Source: Natronolimnohabitans innermongolicus JCM 12255 (GTDB lineage Archaea > Halobacteriota > Halobacteria > Halobacteriales > Natrialbaceae). Taken from it: DNA of 64,000 nucleotides. The position numbers were made by a program, and so were the translations under genes. Of the stretch, positions 3,259-14,070 are shown in pieces (position 1 is the stretch's first letter; each line of letters opens with the position of its first letter). Below the pieces are notes generated by a model. That model searched no databases and was not told where the DNA came from. It saw nothing but the letters and a program-made list of their open reading frames with translations. The stretch spans positions 1 to 64,000 of the forward strand of contig NZ_AOHZ01000047.1 in the NCBI RefSeq assembly GCF_000337215.1, written 5' to 3'.

Positions 3259-3714
3259 TCAGAGTTCGATCGTGTAACTCGTGACCGCGTCCGATTCGTC
3301 GACGGTAACCTCGACCTCGAGTTCGTCGTCACCGCCGTCCGGGTTGACGATGTCGCGTACCGCCGCCTCGGGCCGGGGTGCGAGCGCCGACGGGAAGACG
3401 AGTTCGACCGTCCCGTCGACGTCGGGGCCGTGGCGTTCGGCCGTCGCCCGCACGACCGATTCGTCTTCGAAGTGGACGGTCACCGCGAGCGCCGGTCGCG
3501 TCGCCGATTCGGGCTCCGGATCGGATTCGAACGTGACGGCACGGACACCGTCGTCGCGCTCGAACGCGCGTCGGTTCTCGCTCGGTAGCGACGCGTCGTA
3601 AGACTCCTCGAGGTACGTCTCGAGCCGTTCGACGGACTCACTCTCGAGTGCGGCCTCGGCGAGTGCGTCGGCCTCGGCGTCCGAGAGCGCCGTCAGTCGC
3701 TGGTGGTCGTCCAT
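3259..3714 (-). CDS. Conserved haloarchaeal protein of unknown function, 151 aa
   Basis: An acidic soluble protein with no signal peptide or membrane segment. The N-terminal half is helical (Ala/Glu-rich). The C-terminal half alternates short beta-like stretches, ending in a VEVTVDESDAVTSYTIEL tail. The start at the ATG whose last base is 3714 is chosen because upstream translation loses acidic composition. It converges on the TFB gene, with 32 bases between the stops. I do not recognise the family and assign no function. Confidence 0.75.
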   Translation of the reverse strand: MDDHQRLTALSDAEADALAEAALESESVERLETYLEESYDASLPSENRRAFERDDGVRAVTFESDPEPESATRPALAVTVHFEDESVVRATAERHGPDVDGTVELVFPSALAPRPEAAVRDIVNPDGGDDELEVEVTVDESDAVTSYTIEL

Positions 3715-12014: not shown

Positions 12015-12323
12015 TTGTCGGACGTGTCGATCGTTTTTTCGCGCCACCGCACTGAACGCTGCGTCGAGGCTGTATCGTCCGTTCCGTTCGATCGCCGCCA
12101 CGACCACGACTCCCCTATACCGGTGTCGCATACAGCGGTGCGAGATGGCGCTCTGATCGTGATACATCTACGCGCTGGAGCCCCTGTGTATCGCGGCCGC
12201 GGTGGGAAATCGATTCTCAAGCTCCTCGTCGGCGGAGACCCTTCCGTTGAGGAAACGGTCGGCGAACTCGAAGCGCCGAACGAACGTCTAGAGCAGTTCG
12301 TATCGAACTGTCGGGGCTCGTGA
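12015..12323 (+). CDS. Doubtful ORF, possibly a gene fragment
   Basis: A TTG-started frame of 102 codons. Only the last 45 residues (from VYRGRGGKSILKLLVGG) read like protein-coding sequence, ending in a charged helix. The N-terminal part is not acidic and overlaps the terminator-like T run. This may be the 3' remnant of a lost gene. No family recognised. Confidence 0.25.
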   Translation: MSDVSIVFSRHRTERCVEAVSSVPFDRRHDHDSPIPVSHTAVRDGALIVIHLRAGAPVYRGRGGKSILKLLVGGDPSVEETVGELEAPNERLEQFVSNCRGS

Positions 12324-12527: not shown

Positions 12528-13109
12528 TTAGTCGCCGATCGCTTCGACCGAGACGGTCTCTGGAGACGTGTCTATCTCATACTCGTCCGCAAACTCTTGA
12601 CTGACGATCCATTCGTTTTCATCGAGATCCGATTTATCCTCCTGTTCAGTAGCTGCTTCTTGAGCGAATGGCGAGGGCAGGGAGGGGCGGTGCTCGTTGA
12701 TAAGATCTATCAGGAAACTAGTTGGGTTGGGAATACACTGCGGGATGACCACGTAAGGCTGGGGCATAAAGGGAGGGACGCTGTACAGATCGATCTCACA
12801 TCCGGACCAGCCCAATCGGTCGAGTGTTTCATACGCGAAACAACCCGCGCTGCCGACGACACAGCCTTTAGCTGCCACGCTGCCTGCCGGGGTCGGAATC
12901 AGAAGACACATTCCGGCTGCTGCGTAGCAGATATCGTCGCCGTCGAACGTTTTGACGTGGGTTACTCCAGGAACCGAGGACTGTGGTTCGACCTGTTCGT
13001 CCGAAGCGGTTGCCGAGCCACTAACTGCCGGCGTCGCAATGGCAGCGCCTCCAACAATACCCATGCTTTTCAATACGCTTCGCCTGTTATTGTCAAACTC
13101 ATCGGACAT
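12528..13109 (-). CDS. Tat-secreted six-cysteine protein, halocin-like candidate
   Basis: A 193-residue protein. The N-terminus has twin arginines (R9-R10-SVLK) and a hydrophobic stretch to about residue 35, a Tat signal. A compact glycine/alanine/cysteine-rich region follows, with C61, C68, C83, C90, C104 and C125, and then an acidic C-terminal tail (residues 140-193). The Cys-rich, hydrophobic middle resembles in style, not in proven homology, the mature peptide of the haloarchaeal bacteriocin halocin C8, which is also Tat-exported and cut from a larger precursor. GC is lower than in neighbouring genes. It is transcribed divergently from a small membrane protein (13357), and the two share identical TTTATATT promoter boxes. 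It could instead be another secreted Cys-rich protein. Confidence 0.7.
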   Translation of the reverse strand: MSDEFDNNRRSVLKSMGIVGGAAIATPAVSGSATASDEQVEPQSSVPGVTHVKTFDGDDICYAAAGMCLLIPTPAGSVAAKGCVVGSAGCFAYETLDRLGWSGCEIDLYSVPPFMPQPYVVIPQCIPNPTSFLIDLINEHRPSLPSPFAQEAATEQEDKSDLDENEWIVSQEFADEYEIDTSPETVSVEAIGD

Positions 13110-13135
13110 TGAAGTTAGATTTTCATTCTGTGAAT

Positions 13136-13143
13136 AATATAAA
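13136..13143 (-). promoter_or_regulatory. TATA box TTTATATT for the Cys-rich secreted protein
   Basis: Read on the minus strand, TTTATATT ends 27 bases before the ATG at 13109. This is the spacing expected for a leaderless haloarchaeal transcript starting at or next to the start codon. Confidence 0.6.
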
Positions 13144-13324
13144 TCTTTACCTGTATTATAAATCTAATGTATATACACAAATAATGAAGTTTAAGATATA
13201 TAGTGTAATGAAGAATTTTGATTTTTGCCCGGTAGTATAAGTACCCTCTATACTGATCACTCCAATCTAATTAATAATAATTATTATTTATAATAGAAAT
13301 AAAATAGCCAATTATGGATGAAAA

Positions 13325-13332
13325 TTTATATT
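13325..13332 (+). promoter_or_regulatory. TATA box TTTATATT for the small membrane protein
   Basis: TTTATATT ends 25 bases before the ATG at 13357. It is the same octamer with almost the same spacing as the divergent promoter at 13136-13143, inside a roughly 240-base AT-rich stretch. Confidence 0.6.
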
Positions 13333-13356
13333 GTGGTTGAGGGATAAATTCGGACT

Positions 13357-13566
13357 ATGAGCGTTGTAGAAGCTGTTTTAGACACAGATATTACTGAAGG
13401 AAAAGCGAAAAGTTACAGGAATAGCTTCACCGTTGCCCTCGTCGCTACGTTCGTCGTTCTGTCGTATCAGTACTGGATTGTTGGAAGCCTTGCAATTGAA
13501 ACGTTAGGTGTGTTCTTTTCTACAGCCCTCACGTTCGTCGCATCACAATATATCTACGACCGCTAA
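13357..13566 (+). CDS. Small two-helix membrane protein
   Basis: A 69-residue protein with a short charged N-terminus (residues 1-22) and two hydrophobic segments, about 25-44 and 48-66, ending in a charged Asp-Arg. Codon usage is less GC-biased than elsewhere. No family recognised. It faces the Cys-rich secreted protein across an AT-rich shared promoter region, so it could be an immunity or export partner; this is inference from context only. Confidence 0.65.
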   Translation: MSVVEAVLDTDITEGKAKSYRNSFTVALVATFVVLSYQYWIVGSLAIETLGVFFSTALTFVASQYIYDR

Positions 13567-13783: not shown

Positions 13784-14070
13784 GGTCGCCGCTCCGCTAC
13801 GACGCAGCCTCCTGCACTCCGTTTAGTCGTCGGCCTCGCCCTGCTCCATGGCTCACTTCGTTCGCCGTTCCGCTACGAGGCCTCGTTTCACTCGGCTTCG
13901 CCTTTCTCCGCAGGTCGCTTGCGCTCCCCGTTCCGATACGAAGCTTCCGCTTTCGCTACGCTCAATTGTCGGCTTCGCCCTGCACCACGGGTCGGCTACG
14001 CCTCCCCGCTCCACTACGAAGCCGACTCAATCACTCCGTTCAGTCGTCGGCTTCGCCTTTCTCTATCGGC
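13784..14070 (-). repeat. Degenerate tandem repeat derived from the sulfurtransferase gene 3' end
   Basis: Four diverged units of about 65-78 bases follow one another. Each contains, on the plus strand, a CCCCGTTCCGCTACGAAGCC-like block followed by a GTCGGCTTCGCC-like block. The fourth unit overlaps the last codons and stop of the sulfurtransferase gene (stop at 14040-14042). The other three lie beyond its stop. The array appears to have grown by repeated duplication of the gene's 3' end. Confidence 0.6.
14017..14055 (-). terminator. Stem-loop around the sulfurtransferase stop codon
   Basis: CGAAGCCGAC at 14017-14026 and GTCGGCTTCG at 14046-14055 form a perfect 10-bp inverted repeat with a 19-base loop that contains the stop codon of the 14040-14909 gene. 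It may act in transcript 3'-end formation or stability. Confidence 0.45.

Follow-up and report, generated by a model that had tools for sequence, protein, structure and literature searches.

We suggest that ORF A of Natronolimnohabitans innermongolicus JCM 12255 probably encodes the precursor of a secreted, disulfide-bonded peptide with six cysteines, and we tentatively read it as a compact, divergent, self-exporting, halocin-style relative of a six-cysteine family found in other haloarchaea. The halocin-style part of this reading comes from those relatives: in their intact cassettes the six-cysteine gene accompanies a gene whose Tat-signal product shares homology with the HalI region of halocin C8 precursors and, mostly, a gene for a small membrane protein. 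We infer the homology of A to the family, as well as its export, processing and killing activity and the immunity discussed below, from sequence. All positions refer to the window, that is, the whole stretch of 64,000 nucleotides analysed, unless a locus is named (Table 1).

Table 1. Positions of ORF A and its parts, the adjoining intergenic region, ORF B, and six-cysteine cassettes in other genomes
Feature	Position	Strand	Remark
ORF A, 193 aa, ATG start	12528..13109	-	Tat signal, six-Cys core and acidic tail
Tat signal peptide of A, ~residues 1-36, RRSVLK motif	13002..13109	-	cleavage point inferred
Six-Cys core of A, C61 to C125, C-x6-C-x14-C-x6-C-x13-C-x20-C	12735..12929	-	
Acidic C-terminal tail of A, residues 126-193	12531..12734	-	basis: sequence
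Divergent A-B intergenic region, AT-rich, 24% GC	13110..13356		both promoters presumed there
ORF B, 69 aa, ATG start, two hydrophobic segments	13357..13566	+	five homologues elsewhere
Cassettes of Tat HalI-like, six-Cys and small membrane genes, at least four haloarchaeal genomes	L153:4477-5895, L132:5568-6945, L134:4888-6213, L180:4865-6194		

ORF A, ORF B and the low-GC island

The first-pass annotation had described two ORFs here and assigned to A a Tat signal, six cysteines and an acidic C-terminus; all of these features are present in the DNA. A begins with NNRRSVLKSMG, a haloarchaeal-type Tat signal; six other haloarchaeal proteins have Tat-type N-termini that match this segment at 37–59% identity, and the Pfam model TAT_signal matches it at E 0.063, which falls short of the curated cut-off. 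A gap of only ~25 residues separates the signal from C61, which is followed by C68, C83, C90, C104 and C125 and then by a tail of 68 residues that is acidic and without cysteine. The ORF has a GC content of 55% and a haloarchaeal acidic composition, and its opposite strand carries an overlapping ORF of 171 aa. For the mature part of A we found no homologue at E ≤ 0.001 in ~400 genomes of the order and in other collections: searches that used A itself as the query returned only matches to the Tat signal or hits at chance level; and queries of genome contigs, viral contigs, plasmids, phages, PDB, PHROGs and PADLOC returned no relatives. The AlphaFold models of A alone (pLDDT 50) and of the G174 member of the family described below (three-sequence alignment; pLDDT 38) are, at these pLDDT values, too poor for a fold search.

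GC3 is 0.59 in A and 0.47 in B, compared to 0.85–0.88 in three neighbouring genes. G338 (same genus) and G335 lack the stretch that runs from ~10.66 kb to 13.89 or 14.06 kb, and in G189 the polysaccharide-deacetylase-like gene is kept and a histidine-kinase-like gene replaces A and B; none of the relatives examined therefore carries the island at this site. The low-GC island is strain-specific among these relatives, and its composition and its absence from them fit a recent gain, in agreement with the recent transfer proposed on first reading. Only part of the accompanying picture of an AT-rich island bounded by repeats and gene fragments stood: the GC and GC3 values confirm the AT-richness, whereas neither kind of border did. 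The direct repeats at 13786–14066 (spacing ~77 bp, with a range of ~62–78 bp), which adjoin the sulfurtransferase gene, are found at the same place beside that gene in relatives G338, G189 and G273; because they also occur in relatives that are free of the island, they do not mark its insertion, and we rejected them as a border. No gene fragment was confirmed: 12015–12320 had no useful match in Pfam, NCBIfam or PHROGs that would identify it as one, and a border search of plasmids returned the sulfurtransferase only.

ORF B, with hydrophobic peaks at residues 26–42 and 41–57, has homologues in five other genomes of the family Natrialbaceae (54–67% identity; one with an internal stop), and this conservation indicates that B is not a chance ORF. 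The homologues lie in unrelated surroundings (thymidylate-kinase-like, CPBP-like membrane and Orc1/Cdc6-like genes and others, labelled by eye); none of the five has a six-cysteine (Tat) neighbour; and A and B are found together in this genome alone. A search of viral contigs with B gave no matches, and a two-helix likeness of B to branched-chain amino-acid permease-like proteins of ~680 aa was discarded as without meaning. The small membrane protein B is genuine and stands alone; its link to A is one of adjacency only. The proposal that B serves A in immunity or export, for which co-occurrence of the two genes in other haloarchaea had been named as a check, is thus unsupported: the five B homologues lack a six-cysteine neighbour, and A itself has no close homologue. 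The B homologue in G335 (L048:6343-9514) lies among several other hydrophobic small proteins of 61–72 aa, near Orc1/Cdc6-like and transposase-like genes (by eye).

A six-cysteine family and its cassettes

The entry point to the family was an ORF of 135 aa in G280, which a search with A returned at E 0.063 for one genome and which has the same cysteine order as A. Its Smith-Waterman score against A (77) exceeded those of 5000 of 5000 shuffles, which is not proof of relationship, as the ORF was picked from many matches. Relatives of this ORF were found in G286 (Halobacteria archaeon HArc-gm2; 5e-33), in two further copies in G280, in G177 and in G131; further family matches came from plasmids of Halobacterium hubeiense and Haloarcula hispanica; and profile searches added G174 (Natronobiforma cellulositropha; 4.6e-39), G170 and G218. 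The G174 member was found without using A. Alignment A4, in contrast, included A, and its recovery of A is by construction. Intact members are 175–188 aa long and have six cysteines (seven in G280c), no obvious signal peptide and an acidic tail, and the family is coherent, with leave-one-out scores of 63–167 bits for true members. No NCBIfam or Pfam model scored above cut-off for the family proteins tested, the literature searched holds no description of the family, and the viral contigs searched gave no matches to it.

In G174, G286, G280c, G170, G218 and G125, the six-cysteine gene begins a few bases from the end of a gene for a Tat-signal protein of 176–211 aa. These partners score 14–31 bits on an HMM of 36 HalI regions (0 of 500 shuffles as good in each case) and reach an hhalign probability of 95; the reverse test, in which a six-sequence partner model was compared with single C8 precursors, was weaker and mixed. 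By these profile comparisons, the Tat-signal partner and the HalI region of halocin C8 precursors are homologous. The six-cysteine proteins themselves have no similarity to the C8 domain (hhalign probability 0.5). Downstream, every locus except G170 encodes a membrane protein of 51–70 aa, mostly with two hydrophobic peaks and, in G218 and G125, with one (simple hydropathy rule).

Several loci carry a damaged six-cysteine gene. In the G125 cassette (L182:2992-4019) the cysteine core has been deleted in frame, with no damage to the genes for the HalI-like and the small membrane protein. In G131/H. hispanica N601, in H. hubeiense and in two G280 copies, the six-cysteine gene is without its N-terminal part and the small membrane gene is intact; on pHH126 (Haloarcula hispanica N601; L197:4381-5071) and pSTJ001 (Halobacterium hubeiense; L137:4986-5424), the truncated gene is followed by an intact gene for a membrane protein of 60 or 51 aa. 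A membrane gene kept beside a broken six-cysteine gene gives the picture that would be expected of effector loss with immunity kept, which is not proof of it. ProC8 is one precursor, with the C8 peptide at the C-terminus behind the HalI region (PMC11509114), and the cassette may represent this halocin C8 logic divided among separate genes.

Resemblance of A to the family

The resemblance of A to the six-cysteine family is suggestive. A shares with the family (G174, G286, G280, G170, G177 and G218, with partial members on pHH126 and pSTJ001) the order of the six cysteines, the exact C3-x6-C4 spacing and the acidic tail; its IDLY segment aligns with the [ILV][DEG][VF][YF] strand motif of the members; and its VIPQC end compares with VPxC in close members ([VI]-P-x-C in the closest). 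The combination of C3-x6-C4, the strand motif and a hydrophobic stretch before C6 is found in A, with P=0.003 for a motif that was defined after seeing A. The comparison with the G174 protein, the member found without A, also gave P=0.003; an HMM of G174 and G286 gave P=0.007; and the family HMM without the A-selected member gave P=0.045. On the nine-member HMM A scores 4.5 bits, with P=0.018 when compared to Cys-fixed shuffles; true members score 63–167 bits, and the score of A overlaps the background, as some unrelated cysteine-containing ORFs reach as much. A has no significant similarity to several single members, and when the genome that encodes A was searched with a profile that left A out, A was not among the hits.

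The differences concern both the protein and its surroundings: A has C4-x13-C5 where members have x11, a shorter C1-C3 spacing and a Tat signal of its own, whereas family members have no obvious signal and their gene follows a Tat HalI-like gene. A search with the HalI HMM found no HalI-like gene beside A, and A itself has no HalI region. The small membrane gene of the cassettes lies downstream on the same strand, which is not so for A: its neighbour B points away from it on the opposite strand and has a history of its own. Weighing these observations, we put the chance that A is homologous to the family near one half.

Alternative readings, possible mechanism and significance

A rival that we regard as nearly as likely as the reading of A as a halocin-style relative is that A is an orphan, a Tat-exported cysteine-rich protein that serves another purpose, as a surface or structural protein or in metal or redox binding, and whose likeness to the family reflects convergence among small, disulfide-rich, Gly/Ala-rich proteins. 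The lack of a homologue for the mature part of A across the collections searched and a family profile score within the background range argue for it; the shared cysteine order, the exact C3-x6-C4, the strand and terminal motifs and the P value against a member not chosen with A argue against it. That A and B are a pair of genes for an antagonistic peptide and its immunity or export protein seems improbable to us: the two are divergent neighbours within one low-GC island, and most six-cysteine cassettes elsewhere have small membrane proteins, but the homologues of B do without a six-cysteine neighbour, the orientation of B differs from that of the cassette membrane genes, and no other genome has both genes. 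Less probable still is a reading of A as an ORF that arose by chance or as a functionless gene in decay, to which its missing close homologues, low GC3 and overlapping antisense ORF might point; against it stand a correct Tat motif at the N-terminus, the haloarchaeal type of acidic composition, cysteines in even number and in a family-like layout, and an open frame kept over its full length at 55% GC.

The comparison of A with halocin C8-type precursors made in the first-pass annotation is the most doubtful of these alternatives when taken literally, that is, as membership of A, however divergent, in the halocin C8 family. Like ProC8, A is a haloarchaeal precursor with a Tat-type export signal and a hydrophobic, Gly/Ala-rich, cysteine-containing peptide, and its C-x6/7-C-x13/14-C-x6/7-C spacing recalls part of the C8 domain. 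However, the C8 peptide is C-terminal and has ten cysteines (about ten in the C8 layout), whereas A has six, in a core that comes right after the signal and is followed by an acidic tail, and it has no HalI part. TIGR04449 (halocin_C8_dom) was found in 24 of 125 genomes of the family and, at E ≤ 0.1, in 66 of 392 of the order, and is absent from this genome; A gave no halocin match in NCBIfam at E ≤ 10; and on an HMM built from the halocin C8 domains collected in this analysis A scored -0.0 bits, with 378 of 500 Cys-fixed shuffles equal or better. On these sequence grounds we rejected A as a halocin C8. The looser idea of a halocin-style layout is revived indirectly, through the six-cysteine family and its HalI-homologous partner, to which the link of A is suggestive.

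If A is indeed a halocin-style relative of the family, it would exit through the Tat pathway on its own signal, fold and form its disulfides around the time of export, be cut from the signal and perhaps also from the acidic tail, and act on haloarchaeal cells nearby, with the membrane as the probable site of action. In full cassettes, the six-cysteine protein would be carried out in complex with the Tat HalI-like partner, which may also keep it inactive, and the small downstream membrane protein would give the producer immunity. No HalI-like gene adjoins A in the window, and A itself carries the signal. A more specific version, which we consider possible but unlikely, is a split-halocin system consisting of a Tat HalI-type gene, a signal-less six-cysteine effector and a membrane immunity gene, in which the effector would leave the cell already folded, with its HalI-like partner taking it through Tat, and of which A would be a stripped-down descendant that gained a Tat signal. 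HmHapP (HFX_0892) of Haloferax mediterranei, likened to A by description, is a precedent for a longer protein whose active portion is cut from its N-terminus: proteolysis of this secreted precursor releases an antagonistic fragment from that end. Its activity rests on two alpha-helical motifs, and the word cysteine is absent from the text of that report (PMC12893001).

Few halocins are known at the sequence level, and A may represent an archaeal antimicrobial of a new kind. If the halocin-style reading is true, a second cysteine-rich family would be tied to HalI-like proteins, widening the archaeal antimicrobial repertoire; immunity and effector would be genetically separate, making the role of HalI directly testable; and a partner that carries a folded, disulfide-rich peptide out through Tat would be suggested. 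For the window alone the claim is smaller, namely one strain-specific secreted six-cysteine protein.

The window also holds, 8.8 kb from A, an ORF of 151 aa without a Tat signal (3259–3714, minus strand). It has no NCBIfam match and scores 21.7 bits on the HalI-region HMM, with 0 of 1000 shuffles as good; it is possible that this ORF encodes a stand-alone HalI-like protein.
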